Positions 8,006 through 16,303 of a stretch of DNA of 64,000 bases are shown here, piece after piece; the stretch's first letter is position 1, and each line of letters opens with the position of its first letter. This DNA comes from Luteolibacter sp. LG18 (GTDB lineage Bacteria > Verrucomicrobiota > Verrucomicrobiia > Verrucomicrobiales > Akkermansiaceae): the NCBI RefSeq assembly GCF_036322585.1, contig NZ_AP024600.1:1798001-1862000 (forward strand), given 5' to 3'. Made by a program: the position numbers and the translations under genes. The notes below the pieces were generated by a model. That model saw nothing but the letters and a program-made list of their open reading frames with translations. It was not told the DNA's origin and ran no database searches.

Positions 8006-9412
8006 TCAAATCGACCCCGTGTCCTCCGTCGCTTTCGGCTGTCCCGGCGCGTCATCCGGCAGCCACACGGGCAGGTGCAGCTTCTTCACCGCCTCTTCCC
8101 CCGCGGGTGAAAACTCCGCGCCCCAGGCCTTGAAGAACTGCGTGAGATCCTTCCGGCTGTGCTTCGAAAGCGTCAACATCAGGCGGTCCCAGATCGGCTC
8201 GGCTCCCTTCGGGGCTTCCGGCGCGTCCTTCGCGTGATACTCGTGGATCGTCTTCTTCACCGGCTCCCAGCCGATGCCGTTGATGAGCTGGATCCAGAAC
8301 GCGATCGAGATCGCGTGGTTGCCATTGAGGTTGCTCCCGATCGCGCCGCGCTCCAGCGGCTTCGCCAGCACGGTGCGGTCGAACTTCCACGGATGCTTCG
8401 GCTTCTTGCCCTGCACCTGGCTCATCACGTAGAGCGGGAAGAGATTGCAGGTGGTCTCGCCCTGGCCTGGAGGGCTCCAGCCACCCCATTGCTGGTTGTG
8501 GCCGATCTCGTGGAAAAATCCCCACAGACCGTTCTCCAGCGCGGTTAGGTCGCTTGCCTCCTTCCGCTTCGAGCCCGCCATCACCGGATAGCCGGAGTGC
8601 ATGGAGCCAGCGGAAATGCTCACGTCATACACGATCCGCTCCACCACTGGCACCGGTGGCCCGGACAGGTCCTGCACGCAGGCCATGCCCTTCTTGTAGA
8701 AAGTCATCAGCGCGGTCGGGTCGTCCAGCTTGCGCACGTCCGCGGACGGCACGGAAAGGGTGAGAGGGCCACAGCTCATCTCGGCAAAGGGTCCCGGGTA
8801 GTTCCGGACTTTCTCCCGCCACTCGGTCGGGCTGGTCTTTCCGAGCACGAACCACGGCTGCTGCACCACCCCGCTGAACCGCACCGGAATGGTCTTGCCG
8901 GTGACCTCCTTCGGCACTTCCAGATACACCGTGCCGCCGAACGGCGAGGCCACCTTCGTCACCGCGGCATTGAGCGGCCACGCCTTCGAAATCGAATAGG
9001 GAAACCGCTTTGCCACCGACTTCTTGTTCGCGTTGTCGCTGTGGCAGCCGATGCGCACCTGCACGCCCAGCTTCGCGAAACTCTCGGGAACCTCCACCGT
9101 CACCACCTCACCCGCTGGAGCGTAATAACCGGTGGTCACGCGGTCGGTCTTGCCACGCCAGCGCGGGAAATCGGTGTTGAGGTCGAAGCGCTGGTCCTTC
9201 AGCCGCGCTGCCTCCGCGGGCACGGCTCCCGGCCAATCGACGGCGCTGGAGTCGGCGTGGATCTGGTCCGGCGGCAGGGCATTCCAATCCGCCACCACCT
9301 TCTTCGCGGCCTCCAGCTTCTGCTGGTATTCGGGCGAATCCACTCCGGCGCCGGAAAGAAGGCCGGGAGTGGCGAGCAGCAGCGCGACGAGGGAAAGACG
9401 GAGGCGGTTCAT
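8006..9412 (-). CDS. Secreted M60 family (enhancin-like) zinc metallopeptidase
   Basis: Protein of 468 residues with an N-terminal signal peptide (cleavage probably near residue 20). The catalytic motif HEIGH is at 301-305 and a likely third zinc ligand, Glu319, lies in GQGETT; the preceding HSGYPVM is also typical of M60. M60 enzymes commonly cleave O-glycosylated, mucin-like proteins, so it probably acts outside the cytoplasm. The ATG at 9412 is preceded by AAGGTGG; upstream in-frame codons lack a signal-like start. It is convergent with the phn operon and separated from it by the REP-like element. Confidence 0.85.
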   Translation of the reverse strand: MNRLRLSLVALLLATPGLLSGAGVDSPEYQQKLEAAKKVVADWNALPPDQIHADSSAVDWPGAVPAEAARLKDQRFDLNTDFPRWRGKTDRVTTGYYAPAGEVVTVEVPESFAKLGVQVRIGCHSDNANKKSVAKRFPYSISKAWPLNAAVTKVASPFGGTVYLEVPKEVTGKTIPVRFSGVVQQPWFVLGKTSPTEWREKVRNYPGPFAEMSCGPLTLSVPSADVRKLDDPTALMTFYKKGMACVQDLSGPPVPVVERIVYDVSISAGSMHSGYPVMAGSKRKEASDLTALENGLWGFFHEIGHNQQWGGWSPPGQGETTCNLFPLYVMSQVQGKKPKHPWKFDRTVLAKPLERGAIGSNLNGNHAISIAFWIQLINGIGWEPVKKTIHEYHAKDAPEAPKGAEPIWDRLMLTLSKHSRKDLTQFFKAWGAEFSPAGEEAVKKLHLPVWLPDDAPGQPKATEDTGSI

Positions 9413-9426
9413 GGGAGCCACCTTTC

Positions 9427-9447
9427 GTAGCTTCCCGCAGGCAAGCT
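9427..9447. repeat. Possible degenerate REP-like hairpin in M60 leader
   Basis: GTAG overlaps the start of an imperfect hairpin, GCTTCCC-GCA-GGCAAGC with one mismatch, just upstream of the M60 gene. It resembles the clearer GTAG-hairpin units at 7896-8003 in layout but not in stem sequence. Family membership is uncertain. Confidence 0.3.
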
Positions 9448-9496
9448 GCCAAAACTCCGGCCACCTCCAAAACTGACGAAACCCGTTCGGCAGGTA

Positions 9497-9538
9497 CAAA
9501 AAAAACGCCGGTCACCCCACCACGGGCGACCGGCGTTT
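9497..9538 (-). terminator. Rho-independent terminator after the DUF6209-like gene
   Basis: An 11-base-pair stem, AAACGCCGGTC (9503-9513) with GACCGGCGTTT (9528-9538), is followed on the minus strand by a run of U from the A-tract at 9498-9505. It lies 11 bases past the stop of the minus-strand gene and ends the three-gene operon. Confidence 0.88.
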
Positions 9539-9549
9539 CGGTTCAATTC

Positions 9550-10272
9550 TCAGTCCGCCAGATACCAGCGGCCCTGGTTGTCATCCGTGAACTTGCGGTC
9601 TCCGATGGTGTAGACGAGGTCGAAGGCCACCGCCGCGCCCACCGGCACCGGAATGCCTTCCGGCGGTGCCACCCAGCGCTTGCCGTCCGGGCCATCGGCG
9701 GAGACGAGAGGCGTTTCCACCCGCGGCCGTTCCTGGAAGGCCGGCAGCCGGTGTCGCGCCGTCACCGAGGTGACCTGGGGAATGGTGGTCACGTCGAAGT
9801 CCACCTTCGACTGCGCCGGGTTCTGCTGGTCTGGAGCCTTCACCACGGCTTTCACCTCGGTCACGTCGTGCAGCGAGAACCGCAGCCAGTGGTTCTGGTT
9901 GTTCTCGCTGTCCCAGTGGGTGTAGCCGTCGTCGTGGGTGCAGGAGAACCAGGCTTCGAGCTCGTCGGTGCCGGCGGGCAGCTCGAATTTGGTCTCCAGC
10001 ATGTAGCCCTGGCCGGCGGGATCCGCCAGCTCGGCGAGCGGCGCATCCTCGGGAACGGTCAGCGTGCCCTCCCAGGTCTGGCCGGAAGGATGGAAGCGGA
10101 TGTGGGCGTGGATCTCGTGGGCACCGTGCTCCGTGTCCTCGTCGGTGAGGAGGCGCAGCGGATCGTAGCGCAGCACGCAGGGTCCGGGGATGAGGTCGCC
10201 CTGAACCAACTCGTGTTCATCCTGGGTGAACGTGATCTGGGGCCGGCGGCCCTTGCTTTGGCGTGGTTTCAT
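9550..10272 (-). CDS. DUF6209-like conserved protein
   Basis: Protein of 240 residues without signal peptide or membrane segment. It has two halves: an N-terminal beta-rich part starting ITFTQDEHELVQGDL and containing the charged patch CTHDDGYTHWDSENNQNHW, and a C-terminal part ending YTIGDRKFTDDNQGRWYLAD. I recall this pattern from proteins labelled DUF6209; no activity is known to me. It starts 8 bases after the stop of the GH31 gene, so both are very probably on one transcript and the protein may act with that enzyme. Confidence 0.7.
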   Translation of the reverse strand: MKPRQSKGRRPQITFTQDEHELVQGDLIPGPCVLRYDPLRLLTDEDTEHGAHEIHAHIRFHPSGQTWEGTLTVPEDAPLAELADPAGQGYMLETKFELPAGTDELEAWFSCTHDDGYTHWDSENNQNHWLRFSLHDVTEVKAVVKAPDQQNPAQSKVDFDVTTIPQVTSVTARHRLPAFQERPRVETPLVSADGPDGKRWVAPPEGIPVPVGAAVAFDLVYTIGDRKFTDDNQGRWYLAD

Positions 10273-10280
10273 GGCGGGAT

Positions 10281-13121
10281 TCAGTAAGAGGCGACGACGG
10301 TGGTGTCGGACTTGTTGTCGAAGATCTTCACGAAGACGATGTCGATGGATTCATTCCAATACCATGCATCGGCGGCGGCGTTTTCCAGCGATTGCGCGTC
10401 GCCCACGTTGGTGAGCACGGTGCCGTCGCGGGTGACTTGGCTGGCGCTGGTGATGCTGCCGAGGATGGCCAGATAGATGAACTTCGCGCCCGGCGTGTAG
10501 GGGCCCTCGACCCGGGCGACGCGCACCTGGCGCTGCACCGAGCCGTTCACGTTCACCGTCTGCTGGTAGACGCGGGACAGGCGGTAGTCGCCGGCCTGGG
10601 CCTGCGTCGTGATGCCATCGTCCTGGTAGAGTTCGTACGCCGCCTCGTCCGTCCAGCGGTCCGGGCCGGGGTAGAAGTTGATCGTCAGCGGGTTCTCCGG
10701 GAGCTGGCCGACCCACTGCTCCAGGTTGGAGAAGGGGAGGATCGCACCGGCGCGGATGTAGATCGGCACCAGGGTCAGGTCCGCGTAGTAGTTGCTGATG
10801 TAAGTGCCGCCCGGCACCGCCGCCACGAGCGGGGCGGTGTTGTCCATGAAGGCATACCAGTCGCTGCCCGCGGGTAGGTAGACGCCGCGCACCGGCGAGG
10901 TCGGCGGGTTCGCCGTCTCGTGCTGGGTGAGGATCGGAGCCACGAGGAAGTCGCCGCCCACGAAGAACTGGTCGTTCAGGTGGCCGTAGACCCCGGCGTC
11001 CTGCGGGTCGTTCAGGAACAGCGGGCGCGCCACCGGCAGGCCGGACTTCGTCCACTGGTACATCGCGTCATACTGCACCTGCATCATGCGGTAGCGCAGC
11101 TCCACGTACTTGCGGCAATTCGTCGGTACAGGCTCGCCGTAGGCGAAGGGCTCCTGGAACTGCTTGTTGTAGCCGTCGTAGTGGTTGCGGTACCACGGCA
11201 GGAACGCGCCGAGCTGCATCCAGCGGGTGAGCAGCTCGTAGTTCGTGATGCCGCCGACGATCGAGCCGCCGACCACGCTCGACTGCGTGGTGGTGCCCGC
11301 CCCGGTGGCGAAACCGCCGATGTCGCAGCCGCTGATCGGCACACCGGACATGCCCAGGTTCAGCACCTCCGGCAGGTTGATGCTGAGGAAATCCCAGCTC
11401 GAGGCCGAGTCACCCGTCCACAGGCCGGCGTAGCGCTGCATGCCGGCGTAGCCGCCGCGGGCGATGATGAAGTTGCGGGTGTCCGGGCGCAGCGTGTTGA
11501 TGCCGTTCCAGGTGCCGTTGAGCAGGTTGTTGACGTAGGAGTTGTGGAGCTGCGCGTTCGGCAGGTAGTTCACCGTCACCGTGCCGTCCGCGGCCGTCGC
11601 TTCCTGCGCCATCATCAGGTTCTGCGGAAACGTCTTGTAGTACTGGTTCTCCGGCGGAAGGTTCGGGTCGATCGCCGGGCAGGTCATGTCCTGCCAGATC
11701 ATGTCGAGCCCGAGGTCGTCGATCAGGTGGCTGTACTGCTCGCCCCACGATTTCCGCACGGAAGCGAGGCCGAAGTCCGGGTAGTTTCCCGGCGCGGCCA
11801 GCGGCATCAGGCCGTTGCGGTTGAACTGGAGCGGCGGCGAGGGATACGGGTTGTTGCCACGGTTGTTGCCGTAGTTCACGCCACCGTCGTAGTAGTCCTG
11901 GGACTCGCCGTCCTGGTAGCGGGTGTCGTAGATGAGCGCGTTCGCGGCGATCAGGTTGTCGCGCTGGTCGTAGGGGGCTTTCACACCCTCCTGGTTCAGC
12001 GGGTTGTCCGTGATGATCGGCGTGATGTTCGTGCTCATCTTGAAGCCGATCCCGTGCAGGTCGCTGAACAGCTCCTGCGCGTTCGGGAACTTCATCTCGC
12101 TGTGGGTGAACGTCCGGTAGTTGTCCTGGAAGTCCACGTCGATGTGCAGGCCGTCGCAGGGAATGCGCGCTGCGCGGTACGAGTTCGCCGCGGCCGAGAG
12201 CTTGTAGCGGTCATAGTAACCGTACGCGCCCTGGTGCAGGCCGAAGACATAGCGCGGCGGCATCGGGCTGCGGCCGGTGAGCGTGGTGTACTGCTGGAGG
12301 ATGTCCGGCACCGCGGCACCCGCGAAGAAGTAGTAGTCGAGCTCGTTGTAGAGCGCGCCCATGTAATACTTCCCGGTCATGTCCGAGTAGTCGTTCGAGG
12401 CGATGTTCGCGTAGGTCTGCGCCGGGTTGTCCAGGAACACGCCGGTGGCGAAGCCCGCGCCGCTGAAGGCACCGGACGGGAACGGGTTGAACTCCACCAG
12501 TACCGGGATCGAGCAATACAGCGGCTCGGTCGGGTTCAGCGGGCCCGGATCGCCGAGCGAGGGGCCGTTGTAGGTGAAGTTGTCGAAGTTGAAGAACGTG
12601 TAGGTGAAGTTGTTCTTCGTGATCTGGCTGCCCGCCTTCTCACCGAGGCCGTAGTAGCCCGCGCCCGGAGGCGTGGTCTTCATCACGGCGATCACCTGCT
12701 GGTTCGGAATGTAGAGCACGCCCTGGCCGGGCGCGTCCTGGTGGATCAACTGGCCGTTGCGGAACACCTGCACCGCGAACGGCGCGAGGGCGATCTGGAT
12801 GCTCAGCGAGCCGGTCTCGATCACCAGCAGCCCGGGGTTCGCCAGGCTGTGGGTGACGTTGAGGCCGGTCAGGCCGAGATCGCGGCTGACCACCGCGGTC
12901 GAGGTCTCGGTGGCGTAGGTCGCGCCGGTGGCCGGGTTGAACCGGAGCCGGTAGGCCGTGGGCCCGAGGATCTGGATCACCAGCGAGCGCGAGCCGAAGA
13001 CGAACGTGAAGTTCTGTCCGCTCGCGTCTGCGGACCAGCTGTCGATGTTGCCGACGCTGCTCCAGCCGGAGTTGTTCGGCGTGAACCCGTTGACGGGGAC
13101 GAATGGAAAACTACTGCTCAT
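10281..13121 (-). CDS. GH31 family enzyme, probable alpha-1,4-glucan lyase
   Basis: Protein of 946 residues with no signal peptide, so probably cytoplasmic. It is a GH31 (alpha/beta)8 enzyme. The nucleophile is Asp478 in GLDMIWQDMTCPAI and the acid/base region is Asp571 in GLWTGDSASSWDF. Ordinary alpha-glucosidases have DMNE after the nucleophile; QDMT followed by PAI is what I remember of red-algal alpha-1,4-glucan lyases. Many other stretches agree with those lyases: FFNFDNFTY, HQGAYGYY, DGLHIDVDFQD, MSTNITPIIT, RNFIIARGGYAG and QFQEPFAYG. Such an enzyme would release 1,5-anhydro-D-fructose from glycogen or starch by elimination. Sequence alone does not rule out a hydrolase or transglycosylase. 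It lies 19 bases after the CxxCH gene in the same operon. Confidence 0.82.
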   Translation of the reverse strand: MSSSFPFVPVNGFTPNNSGWSSVGNIDSWSADASGQNFTFVFGSRSLVIQILGPTAYRLRFNPATGATYATETSTAVVSRDLGLTGLNVTHSLANPGLLVIETGSLSIQIALAPFAVQVFRNGQLIHQDAPGQGVLYIPNQQVIAVMKTTPPGAGYYGLGEKAGSQITKNNFTYTFFNFDNFTYNGPSLGDPGPLNPTEPLYCSIPVLVEFNPFPSGAFSGAGFATGVFLDNPAQTYANIASNDYSDMTGKYYMGALYNELDYYFFAGAAVPDILQQYTTLTGRSPMPPRYVFGLHQGAYGYYDRYKLSAAANSYRAARIPCDGLHIDVDFQDNYRTFTHSEMKFPNAQELFSDLHGIGFKMSTNITPIITDNPLNQEGVKAPYDQRDNLIAANALIYDTRYQDGESQDYYDGGVNYGNNRGNNPYPSPPLQFNRNGLMPLAAPGNYPDFGLASVRKSWGEQYSHLIDDLGLDMIWQDMTCPAIDPNLPPENQYYKTFPQNLMMAQEATAADGTVTVNYLPNAQLHNSYVNNLLNGTWNGINTLRPDTRNFIIARGGYAGMQRYAGLWTGDSASSWDFLSINLPEVLNLGMSGVPISGCDIGGFATGAGTTTQSSVVGGSIVGGITNYELLTRWMQLGAFLPWYRNHYDGYNKQFQEPFAYGEPVPTNCRKYVELRYRMMQVQYDAMYQWTKSGLPVARPLFLNDPQDAGVYGHLNDQFFVGGDFLVAPILTQHETANPPTSPVRGVYLPAGSDWYAFMDNTAPLVAAVPGGTYISNYYADLTLVPIYIRAGAILPFSNLEQWVGQLPENPLTINFYPGPDRWTDEAAYELYQDDGITTQAQAGDYRLSRVYQQTVNVNGSVQRQVRVARVEGPYTPGAKFIYLAILGSITSASQVTRDGTVLTNVGDAQSLENAAADAWYWNESIDIVFVKIFDNKSDTTVVASY

Positions 13122-13140: not shown

Positions 13141-14916
13141 TCAGTTGGCGGGGCACACCTTCTGGGAATTGGGAATGATGTAGTCGCTGAGCTGGGTCAC
13201 ATCCGTGCCCTCGTAGGGAGCGGACTGGGCGCGCAGCTGCAGCAGCCAGCTGTAGTCGGCGTTGCCGGTCACACCGCGGCTCGCGTTCTTGCCGAACATC
13301 GGCACGCGGTAGTTCTTCCCGTCGATGGTCTGGACGAGGTACTTGCCATTGTTGTCCTTCTTGAAGCCGATGCAGGCACCAGCGGAGAAGTGGCAGCCTG
13401 CGCAGCTCTCGGTGGCGAACACGGTGGCCGGGTCGGCCAGCAGGCCCGGGGGCAGGCGGTCATCCTCGGCCAGCGGTCCAGCCGGCTGGTTCCCGTTCTG
13501 GAAGAAGGTCTCCATCGTGGTGTTCACCAGATGGACCGGCGTCACCTTGCCCGGGATCTTGAAGAGGATGGACTCCGGCGAGGACGGCAGCAGGCGGCCG
13601 TCCGGCTGGGCGGCCACGCCGTTCGGGAAGGCCGGGAACGGCGGATCCACCGGCCACTGGGTGCCGATGAGCTCATAGTACTGGAACACCGAGCCCATGC
13701 TCTTCAGCAGGCCGCGCACCTGGTCGTTCAGGTTGTTGGTGGCCTTCGGGATCTGGAGCACCATCAGCGTCTGGGTCGGATCGGTGGTCTTCGATTCATC
13801 CCAGGTGGTGTAGAGCGTCTTGCCATCGTCCTGGCCGGTGGCCGGATTATACTGCTTCACCGGGCCGGCGTTCTTCGGCGCGAGGACGTTCACCGGTTTG
13901 ACGAAGTTCTCGACGTTGAAGAAGTTCGGGCGCAGCGGCTTGCCTCTGCTGTTCCGCTCCAGGTCGTTGACGGTGGTGTTGTCCACCTGCTCGAAGGTCG
14001 CCCACGTCCACGTCGGCGAGGATTCGGTGCGCACCGAGATGTGCATGCCCACCAGGCCGAAGTCGGCCTCGAACGGCTTGCCGCTGAGCGGAATCACCCG
14101 CGCGTGGCGGATGAAGAAGCGCGAGCGGTCGTCCTTGTCGCTCATCTGCTTCCACGCCATCTTGATCTCCGTCGCGCCGCGCTTGGTCGTGCCCTGGTTG
14201 GACGGGAACTCGATCTTGTTCTTGGCGGTGAAGGCCGCCTGGCCCTCGAGGTTGTAGAGCTTGTTCTGGACGAGGTAGTCGAACTCGACCTGGTTCAGCG
14301 CCACCTGGTAGCGCACCCACTTGCCTTCCTGGTCGATCATCGGGCCGGTGAAGGCCTGGAGGCTCTCATCGAGCAGCGGCTGGTGGAGGCCGCCGGGCTT
14401 GTTCGGCTCGTCCGGGGGCATGCCCACTCCCATGCCGCTCATCCAGAAGGCACGGTTCTTCCAGCTCGCCTCCACGGCGTCCTTCCAGGTTTTCGGCGCG
14501 GCGCCGTCCTCGCGGAAAACCTCGCTGATTTCCACGAAGCGCTCCCACACGCGGGGCGCGGCGTTGTCGGCGGGGGTCTTCGCCTTGTCCGGAGCACCGT
14601 CCGGCAGCGCCGGCCAGTTCAGGGCGATGAAGGACTGCCAGGCGAAGATGTCGAACAGGCGCTGCGCCGTCGGCACGTTGTCGTCCGGGATCGTGAACGG
14701 CGGGTTCGGCTTGGCCGGGGTGTCGGAAAGCGCGCGCAGCTTCGGAATGTCCACGTCGTACGGCAGCTCCGGGCTCAGCGGCGTCGGATAGGCGGCCACC
14801 GCCGGGGTGTTTCCGGCGGCCGGGGCGTGGTATTCTTCCGGAGACGCCGCGTGAACGGCGGACAGCAACGGAGCCAGCGCGAGCAACCACGCGCGGCGTG
14901 GAATCTGGAATGTCAT
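13141..14916 (-). CDS. Secreted protein with a single CxxCH haem-type motif
   Basis: Protein of 591 residues with a signal peptide (WLLALAPLLSAVHAAS; cleavage near residue 23). A CAGCH motif at about 505-509 near the C-terminus could bind one c-type haem, with extra cysteines just after it (GACIGF) and at the end (KVCPAN). The middle 400 residues match no family I recognise; phrases such as FDIFAWQSFIALNW suggest a conserved exported protein. The ATG at 14916 gives a clean signal peptide. It is the first gene of the operon with the glucan-lyase-like GH31. How an exported redox protein would serve a cytoplasmic lyase is unclear. Confidence 0.7.
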   Translation of the reverse strand: MTFQIPRRAWLLALAPLLSAVHAASPEEYHAPAAGNTPAVAAYPTPLSPELPYDVDIPKLRALSDTPAKPNPPFTIPDDNVPTAQRLFDIFAWQSFIALNWPALPDGAPDKAKTPADNAAPRVWERFVEISEVFREDGAAPKTWKDAVEASWKNRAFWMSGMGVGMPPDEPNKPGGLHQPLLDESLQAFTGPMIDQEGKWVRYQVALNQVEFDYLVQNKLYNLEGQAAFTAKNKIEFPSNQGTTKRGATEIKMAWKQMSDKDDRSRFFIRHARVIPLSGKPFEADFGLVGMHISVRTESSPTWTWATFEQVDNTTVNDLERNSRGKPLRPNFFNVENFVKPVNVLAPKNAGPVKQYNPATGQDDGKTLYTTWDESKTTDPTQTLMVLQIPKATNNLNDQVRGLLKSMGSVFQYYELIGTQWPVDPPFPAFPNGVAAQPDGRLLPSSPESILFKIPGKVTPVHLVNTTMETFFQNGNQPAGPLAEDDRLPPGLLADPATVFATESCAGCHFSAGACIGFKKDNNGKYLVQTIDGKNYRVPMFGKNASRGVTGNADYSWLLQLRAQSAPYEGTDVTQLSDYIIPNSQKVCPAN

Positions 14917-15260
14917 GATAAGGGGTAGGGTGTGTTTTCCTAGGGAGGTCGTTGGATAAAGCGGGCGGCATGCCACGGCGAGAAAATCGGCATATCTTTT
15001 GCTTATGTTGGATGGCCGATTTTGAGGCTTTGTGATGTCCCCACGCGTTTATCCATTGAGCCGCATCCTGTTGGAAAATCGTGGCTCCGCGAGGGCGGAC
15101 GTGAAACACTAACGACACATGAGCGGCATTGTTAGATAAGTCGTTTTATCCGCCGGAGGTTTCATGCTCCTCTTCACCACGATGGCGCATTGCATGTCAT
15201 TTCCGCCACGCGGGCAGGAACCCCCGTTCCTCCCCGATCACACCCGCGCGCGCCGCCGTC
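14917..15260. other. Intergenic region of 344 bases, upstream of the GH31 operon
   Basis: No convincing gene. The inverted arms AAAATCGG (14983-14990) and CCGATTTT (15016-15023) lie 25 bases apart, about 70-110 bases upstream of the minus-strand operon's first start. They could be an operator or part of the promoter region. The rest, next to the 3' end of the propeller gene, shows nothing I can name. Confidence 0.4.
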
Positions 15261-16127
15261 TCACGGCTCCACCAGCCAGCGGCCCTTGTAGAGCTTCTCG
15301 CTCTCCATCCGGATCTTCCGGTCGGGACGCAGCAGCTCGAAGGAGTCGTTCCACCAGTTGCCTCCGGCGGCCTGGTTCAGGAAAACCCGACCGCTCTTCG
15401 GATGCACGTCGATGCATTTCACCTGCGCCCGGTCCTTCCACTCGGGATGCGGGCGGATTGCGCCTTGGTCCCGGTCGAAGAGCCAGACATGGCCGTGAGT
15501 GGTCACCACCAGATCCGCGCTCCCCGGCACCGGCCGCAGGTCGTGCCCGTCCTCGTCCGGCAGGGGAGTGCTCTTCTCCTGCACCAGCGACGGGGTCTCC
15601 GTCTCCCAGTCCTTCAGTGAGTAGGTCCGCAGCTCGGTGAACCCGAGCGCATACAGCTTCTTCCGACCCTCGTCCCACGCCAAGCCGTGGGCGGAAGGCA
15701 GCGACGTTTCCCACAGCACCTTGTCACCGCGCTTCAGGTCGAACAGCACCAGCCTGTCGCCGCCCACCGACGACGCCACCACGATGCGTCCACCCGGCAG
15801 CCCCTCGATCGAATGGGCGTTCTTGACCCGGGCCGACCACAGCGGCTTCCCGGACGGCAGCTCCAGCAGCGCGCAACCGCCCGCCGAGGACGAAACGAGC
15901 AGCCGCCTGCCGCCGTCCTGCGGCTTGCAGTCGTCGGTCGACCCGAAGGCCTTCACCAGCTCCGCCGGGATCTCCGGGTGATCCTTTGCTTTCCACGACC
16001 ACGTCTTGGCGGGCTTCTCCGCCGCAGGATCAATCATGAACACCTCGTCCCACCCGCAGAGCACGAGCTTGTCCGCGGCGAGCGCGGTCCACGGCAGGGT
16101 CAGCAGGGTGAGAAGCAGGCGTTTCAT
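15261..16127 (-). CDS. Secreted DUF6528-like beta-propeller protein
   Basis: Protein of 288 residues with a signal peptide (MKRLLLTLLTLPWTALAADK). The mature part reads as a small beta-propeller: LVLCGWDEVFMIDP, STDDCKPQDGGRRLLVSSS, KNAHSIEGLPGGRIVVAS, SAHGLAWDEGRKKLYALG. I associate this order of phrases with DUF6528, a family of unknown function. The ATG at 16127 gives the signal peptide; a longer frame upstream does not. It is divergent from dps. Confidence 0.7.
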   Translation of the reverse strand: MKRLLLTLLTLPWTALAADKLVLCGWDEVFMIDPAAEKPAKTWSWKAKDHPEIPAELVKAFGSTDDCKPQDGGRRLLVSSSAGGCALLELPSGKPLWSARVKNAHSIEGLPGGRIVVASSVGGDRLVLFDLKRGDKVLWETSLPSAHGLAWDEGRKKLYALGFTELRTYSLKDWETETPSLVQEKSTPLPDEDGHDLRPVPGSADLVVTTHGHVWLFDRDQGAIRPHPEWKDRAQVKCIDVHPKSGRVFLNQAAGGNWWNDSFELLRPDRKIRMESEKLYKGRWLVEP

Positions 16128-16183
16128 CAGGAACCGCACGGATACGCACCGGTCTTCGCCATTCGTGCAGAACGAAACGACGG

Positions 16184-16198
16184 CGTGCAGCCTGCACG
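16184..16198. promoter_or_regulatory. Inverted repeat between the propeller gene and dps
   Basis: CGTGCA (16184-16189) and TGCACG (16193-16198) form a perfect inverted repeat with a GCC spacer, within the divergent control region. A regulator site is possible, but no family can be assigned. Confidence 0.3.
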
Positions 16199-16303
16199 GA
16201 TGTCGGCTTTTGCCTTCGGGGCATTCCCTTGGAATCAAAGGCTTTTGGGCCTTCTTGCCGTTGGAATGTCCGGTGCTGGGGAATCCCCCAACCGTCCAGC
16301 ACC

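Follow-up and report, generated by a model that had tools for sequence, protein, structure and literature searches.

We analysed a 64,000-nucleotide stretch of the genome of Luteolibacter sp. LG18 (NCBI RefSeq assembly GCF_036322585.1, contig NZ_AP024600.1, positions 1,798,001 to 1,862,000 of the forward strand), hereafter the window, focusing on a gene that encodes a 946-amino-acid GH31 protein resembling the alpha-1,4-glucan lyase of the red alga Gracilariopsis lemaneiformis (GH31, EC 4.2.2.13, crystallised, PDB 2x2h). The gene is the middle one of a three-gene operon encoding a CxxCH protein, the lyase-type enzyme and a DUF6209 protein, with a terminator-like end. The CxxCH gene ends 19 bases before the start of the GH31 gene, and the DUF6209 gene starts 8 bases past its stop codon. 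The features are listed below by window position in the direction of transcription; counts out of 41 refer to the bacterial family described further on, a set of 41 sequences from 40 loci, of which L028 supplies two copies.

13141..14916, minus strand: exported one-haem c-type protein, 591 amino acids from the ATG at 14916 (the open reading frame opens with a GTG at 14976), with a tentative cytochrome P460 or c'-beta-like fold
13390..13404, minus strand: haem-binding motif CAGCH, residues 505-509 of the upstream protein
10281..13121, minus strand: GH31 alpha-1,4-glucan-lyase-type enzyme, 946 amino acids, with an ATG start, an intact open reading frame and no evident signal peptide
12027..12029, minus strand: codon of Asn365, equivalent to N459, the lyase Asn (Asn in 40/41 family sequences, Asp in L044)
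11688..11690, minus strand: codon of the nucleophile Asp478, equivalent to D553 of the algal lyase (Asp in 41/41)
11679..11681, minus strand: codon of Cys481, aligned with the Glu of the hydrolase DMNE motif and with Val556 of the algal lyase
11409..11411, minus strand: codon of the acid Asp571, equivalent to D665 (Asp in 41/41)
9550..10272, minus strand: DUF6209 protein, 240 amino acids, with two beta-sandwich domains and CBM21-like end motifs, as judged from a structural model and profiles
9502..9539, minus strand: hairpin of 16 pairs followed by a T run, resembling an intrinsic terminator, after the last gene

Three terminator-like sites were found in the region, compared with 4.2 expected by shuffling, the other two having 8 and 5 pairs, so that only the strength of the 16-pair hairpin speaks for a terminator. 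A search of the same region for promoter-like sites gave none, against 0.8 expected.

The initial annotation had described a GH31 reading frame with the motif IWQDMTCPAI and Asp478 as nucleophile, and this is what lies at 10281-13121 on the minus strand. The barrel domain (PF01055, expectation value E 2.4e-77) and the GH31 N and C domains (PF13802, E 2.9e-16; PF21365, E 6.7e-16) were all detected above their Pfam cut-offs. Algal lyase 2x2h aligned with the protein in one continuous stretch, covering residues 6-846 (E 1.4e-58), and was the only one of 2x2h, 9kz6 and 6jr6 to do so; maltase-glucoamylase 9kz6 consists of two GH31 units. Identity to the algal enzyme was 31.4% over 773 columns, compared with 27.6-29.8% for six hydrolase-type sequences (L001, L019, 5f0e, 5djw, 9kz6 and 6jr6; four solved proteins and two uncharacterised paralogues). 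Moreover, 28 positions are common to the algal lyase and 90% or more of the bacterial family members and absent in these six sequences, whereas any other single reference has 2-5 such exclusive shared positions.

Phylogenetic relationships were assessed using two trees, in which 2x2h is the single characterised lyase. The first, built with a quick method, contained 58 rows (the 41 family sequences, the algal lyase and GH31 controls, leaving out the seven duplicate or poorly aligned control rows L013-L018 and L023) and placed the family and the algal lyase in one clade with a Shimodaira-Hasegawa-like approximate likelihood ratio test (SH-aLRT) value of 100. The second, more careful tree of 23 rows, including 15 of the 41 family sequences, recovered this clade with a support of 100/100. 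Placement inside the alpha-glucosidase clade, named beforehand as the outcome that would speak against a lyase, was thus not observed. Constraining either the family or the lyase to group with the alpha-glucosidases cost 74.8 log units, and this topology was rejected by the approximately unbiased (AU) test (p about 6e-10).

Loss of the Glu of the hydrolase DMNE motif, which is Val in the alga, is a criterion for lyases. None of the 41 family sequences has Glu at this position, which is occupied by Cys in 29, Asp in 11 and Thr in one. The six hydrolase-type sequences keep the Glu and carry Ile, Met or Ser at the place of the lyase Asn. Residues D328, W476, M479, R555, W568, D600 and H647, which we assign to the glucose (-1) subsite of GH31, show no variation among the 18 members aligned. 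The 2013 work of Rozeboom reportedly deals with a Glu-to-Val switch in a Sulfolobus enzyme. Passages of a 2025 review describe the lyase nucleophile D553 as assisted by N459, where glycosidases have Ile, and lyases as being without the residues that activate water (PMC12441222).

Because the family forms a clade with the algal lyase, has the lyase Asn and is missing the hydrolase Glu, lyase activity yielding 1,5-anhydro-D-fructose is likely, and the likeness to red-algal glucan lyase put forward in the initial annotation held up on each of these points. We therefore favour, with good though not full confidence, a gene encoding a bacterial GH31 alpha-1,4-glucan lyase that would act as the catalytic component of a three-gene module shared by lateral transfer. 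In the mechanism that we propose, Asp571 would protonate the leaving glucosyl oxygen and Asp478 would form a covalent glucosyl-enzyme intermediate. With no Glu at the hydrolase Glu place (Cys481), Asp478, aided by Asn365, would then take the C2 proton, and 1,5-anhydro-D-fructose would leave instead of glucose. The DUF6209 protein probably tethers the lyase to glycogen or starch, and the exported one-haem protein, or a multicopper oxidase in two lineages, might carry out a redox reaction, the substrate of which would most likely be anhydrofructose or a product of it. Computation shows the family placement, the residues of the active site and the operon with its conservation, whereas lyase chemistry, glycogen binding and a role for the redox protein are inferred. 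Strong homology underlies one part of this scheme only, the action of a lyase on an alpha-1,4-glucan.

Relatives of the 946-amino-acid protein, with 38-77% identity, were found in at least 39 loci by a six-peptide-pattern scan of 84,980 species genomes; this number is a lower bound because the pattern scan needs conserved words. The family spans seven phyla, namely Verrucomicrobiota, Acidobacteriota, Pseudomonadota, Myxococcota, Bacteroidota, Cyanobacteriota and Planctomycetota, and the nearest relatives are verrucomicrobial. Its presence within the phylum of the window is patchy, with matches at E 1e-100 in two out of 387 sampled genomes, the window's own counted in. In another 36 genomes of the genus, the matches were partial, with identities of 41% at most and E values of 5e-47 at best, which is the level to be expected for other GH31 proteins. 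The lyase clades mix phyla, grouping Methylacidimicrobium with alphaproteobacteria and Dyadobacter with proteobacteria, so that lateral transfer of the gene unit between bacteria appears likely. Plasmid carriage of the lyase gene was rejected, since all 181 plasmid records matching the GH31 protein were below 60% identity; among the matches listed (40 of 181), identity was 24.8-29.1%, like that of other GH31 proteins. A viral origin was likewise rejected, as a scan of viral contigs matched seven stretches and none of them encoded a relative. One locus carries a tandem pair of lyase-type genes (L028:6889-12862), with Cys at the Glu position in one and Asp in the other. In Calothrix, a protein-arginine deiminase gene (L061:13228-15225) adjoins the gene of the lowest-identity relative, the one with Thr at that position.

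The operon is conserved along with the enzyme. The haem protein is present in 30 out of 40 loci, its gene being the immediate upstream neighbour in 28, lying 2.5 kb upstream in L045 and downstream in L057, while a DUF6209 gene lies directly downstream of the lyase gene in 22 of the 40. At least one of the two partners occurs in 36 loci, and L061 is the only locus with full flanks and neither partner. Cassette members keep the same order and strand across many phyla, mostly with short gaps. Evolutionary distances of the lyase-type proteins correlated with those of the haem proteins (r 0.82, 29 loci) and of the DUF6209 proteins (r 0.91, 21 loci), neither value being reached in 9,999 permutations. 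These comparisons exclude the fragmentary loci L052, L058, L063 and L064, and shared descent of the organisms contributes to the correlations. An isoamylase with a signal-like N-terminus is encoded inside the Gemmataceae cassette (L045), and an alpha-amylase gene adjoins the Nostoc cassette (L041). These two enzymes, retrieved in a scan of 20 of the flanking open reading frames, point to an alpha-glucan substrate. Given the conserved operon, an account of the gene as a glycogen-breakdown gene alone was incomplete and was dropped.

The CxxCH motif is kept in all 30 cassette members of the upstream protein, which has a single copy in the window's genome. By hydropathy window, all 29 complete members have a hydrophobic stretch at the N-terminus, the thirtieth (L052) being a fragment, and some of the N-termini are of lipoprotein type by eye. 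No match to the haem-protein profile was found in the PDB up to E 1, and its Pfam hits with E values of 0.1 or less were scattered and unconvincing. The structural model (predicted local distance difference test, pLDDT, 73; predicted template modelling score, pTM, 0.80) had no Foldseek match at E 0.001. In a second structural search, the best 16 rows were all cytochromes P460 or c'-beta, with Z scores of 4.9-5.7 (weak, being below 8), followed by a row at Z 3.0; pyridoxine oxidases and the other rows with Z of 3.0 or less were rejected as weak. Members of the P460 and c'-beta superfamily resemble the upstream protein in being exported and in having one CxxCH near the C-terminus, but the targets comprise 135-161 residues, whereas the upstream protein has about 500-600. 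We tentatively propose a P460 or c'-beta-like fold, at Z scores below the level that proves kinship.

The DUF6209 protein was modelled as two beta-sandwiches (pLDDT 89). In several members the first domain ends with a motif of the type GQTxWDSxxGKN, and the second domain ends with one like it. Such end motifs are of a type similar to those of CBM21, the starch- or glycogen-binding module of the glycogen-targeting subunits of protein phosphatase 1 (PP1). Pfam CBM_21 was detected at E up to 0.1 in five out of 22 members (best 1.7e-4); when ten members were scanned singly, it was found at the end of the first half in L042 and at the end of the second half in L035, both under the curated cut-off. 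In a second structural search, the second domain matched the N-domain of Apg, an acarbose hydrolase of GH13, at Z 8.7; further matches were to a Big_2-CBM56 chain (Z 8.1) and to SpuA (Z 7.5). These starch-enzyme domains were tied with immunoglobulin (Ig) and fibronectin type III (FnIII) domains and other beta-sandwiches, and the fold search does not decide among them. DUF6209 had no match in plasmid records and no mention in the papers searched. The evidence suggests a putative glycogen- or starch-binding partner that differs from CBM21 in its weak profile scores and in the generic beta-sandwiches returned by the fold search.

Several observations weigh against a lyase working in a module of this kind, some concerning its partners and others the enzyme itself. 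The haem protein is absent from seven of the 37 loci with upstream flank (L035, L039, L041, L042, L044, L061 and L064, each with at least 3 kb); the three further loci without it, L027, L058 and L063, have less than 500 bases of flank. DUF6209 is absent from 14 of the 36 loci with downstream flank, ten of these 14 being from Bacteroidota; the other four of the 18 loci without it have less than 150 bases (L034, L036, L044 and L064). By eye and hydropathy window, the lyase-type enzyme and DUF6209 protein are without a signal peptide and the haem protein has one, so that this single operon appears to encode proteins of two different compartments. None of the scanned flanking open reading frames was named as an anhydrofructose-use gene, in a scan that was not aimed at such genes. 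The link to CBM21 is weak: PP1 glycogen-targeting subunits speak for it as the best PDB profile matches of DUF6209, but their E values are 0.016-0.071, all above 0.01. The Foldseek search with the DUF6209 model gave no match at E 0.001 and a list made up mostly of antibodies, and no CBM21 chain appeared in the fold lists, which shows nothing either way. An internal duplication is not claimed, as the two halves aligned with each other at an hhalign probability of 1.6% (E 0.031).

One rival reading is that the enzyme is a lyase and that its neighbours have nothing to do with this chemistry, in which case the cassette would be just a stable co-transferred unit. The haem-protein family also occurs without a lyase gene. 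It has relatives in 22 plasmid records (25-31% identical), and all ten plasmid relatives examined have one CxxCH near the C-terminus. An oxidoreductase is encoded adjacent to the relative or one gene away in five of the ten plasmid regions examined (L068, L069, L071, L072 and L077): GMC oxidoreductases in Azospirillum and Bradyrhizobium, a tyrosinase in Paracoccus, a molybdopterin enzyme in Methylobacterium and LodA/GoxA in Xanthomonas (Xanthomonas sacchari, L077). The Gloeothece citriformis plasmid relative has a TOMM-type protein and an amidohydrolase nearby; no annotated oxidoreductase was seen near the relatives of Vibrio and Gloeothece verrucosa, and two other regions are without annotation. 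Seen in this way, the large CxxCH protein might be an exported redox partner of general use. Against unrelated neighbours stand the order and strand of the cassette, kept with mostly short gaps through many phyla, and the correlated distances. Furthermore, a multicopper oxidase with a signal-like N-terminus is encoded beside the cassette in Nostoc (L041) and Azospirillum (L039), two of the seven flanked loci without the haem protein, which it probably replaces in these two lineages; a tblastn search with the Nostoc protein found no other in the 40 loci. We consider unrelated neighbours unlikely, though still a reading to be reckoned with.

On the side of the enzyme, raw pairwise scores were slightly higher for the hydrolases 9kz6 (219.7 bits) and 6jr6 (216.2 bits) than for 2x2h (202.1 bits), and 17 positions match at least five of the six hydrolase-type sequences and not the lyase. 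The algal lyase forms a long branch (3.8), which would fit these 17 positions, and its place among the bacterial rows is poorly fixed. Distant GH31 rows (L004, L011, L012 and more) are also without the Glu and have Asp in that column, and the missing Glu alone is not diagnostic of a lyase. The protein could accordingly be an alpha-glucosidase or transglucosylase that is merely lyase-like, Cys481, replaced by Asp in 11 relatives, still permitting hydrolysis or transfer. The Glu-position site is not frozen, given these 11 of 41 sequences and at least seven changes between the Cys, Asp and Thr states on the tree. Raw pairwise scores do not set the lyase apart, and the decision falls to phylogeny and residue tests. 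In these, the tree grouping with alpha-glucosidases was rejected, the 28 exclusive positions are shared with the lyase and the N459 equivalent is Asn in 40/41. Distant rows without the Glu, such as L004, L011 and L012, have His at this place, which makes the Asn the more telling sign of a lyase. A hydrolase or transferase is thus, in our judgement, improbable, and more so than unrelated neighbours. An inactive GH31 relative serving as a glycogen-binding or regulatory subunit is scarcely credible, with both catalytic Asp residues invariant in the 41 sequences and the presumed glucose-subsite residues invariant in the 18 members.

The glucan lyase that we favour differs from the GH31 alpha-glucosidases neutral glucosidase AB (5f0e), alpha-glucosidase II (5djw) and maltase-glucoamylase (9kz6), which have the same domains, nucleophile and acid Asp, but carry Glu in DMNE or DVNE, have Ile or Met at the Asn459 place and belong to a separate clade. 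The Gracilariopsis lemaneiformis enzyme aligns along its full length, has the equivalents of Asp478, Asp571 and Asn365, and likewise lacks the hydrolase Glu; the bacterial protein departs from it in having Cys for Val556 and in sharing its operon with the genes of a haem protein and DUF6209. Passages of the 2025 review (PMC12441222) cite fungi and red algae as instances of glucan-lyase producers, state that soil bacteria consume anhydrofructose and name microthecin and ascopyrone. No characterised bacterial lyase was recognised in the titles and opening lines of abstracts of the papers listed in the literature search, and a subfamily of bacterial lyases may be described in Rozeboom 2013, Okuyama 2016 or the 2023 GH31 subfamily paper. 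GH31 glucan lyases are already known, and what we therefore call new is the bacterial lyase clade together with its cassette of conserved redox and binding partners.

A lyase family of such breadth in bacteria would provide a bacterial source of anhydrofructose and candidate enzymes for expression. It would also offer natural Cys, Asp, Thr and Val variants of the residue that supposedly decides between hydrolysis and elimination. Conservation of the haem or copper partner hints at a following step, which was not found described in the literature searched. One reading, which we put forward as speculative and think rather doubtful, is a laterally moving anhydrofructose module in which the lyase, held on alpha-glucan by DUF6209, would supply 1,5-anhydrofructose to the exported P460-like haem protein or the multicopper oxidase. 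That protein would oxidise the sugar or a derivative to a reactive pyranone of the microthecin or ascopyrone type, or draw electrons from it. If true, such a module might be a chemical weapon or a private carbon route from starch or glycogen.

Some further observations concern the surroundings of these genes. In Reichenbachiella, the lyase gene is followed directly downstream by genes for LodA, a cysteine tryptophylquinone (CTQ) oxidase, and for a flavoprotein of the type that accompanies LodA (L053:13189-16382); a literature search linking cytochrome P460 with LodA found no paper. Two genes flank the operon in the window on the same strand:

15261-16238, same strand as the operon: DUF6528 protein, upstream of the operon
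8006-9499, same strand as the operon: M60-type peptidase, just past the terminator-like hairpin

The peptidase was considered as a fourth operon member and rejected, since the hairpin intervenes and clustering gave no such family in at least three loci. Elsewhere in the window's genome, a glycogen-phosphorylase search gave a weak match only (G000:C1:1558043-1559374, 46.6 bits), and there are two matches of glycogen-synthase type.

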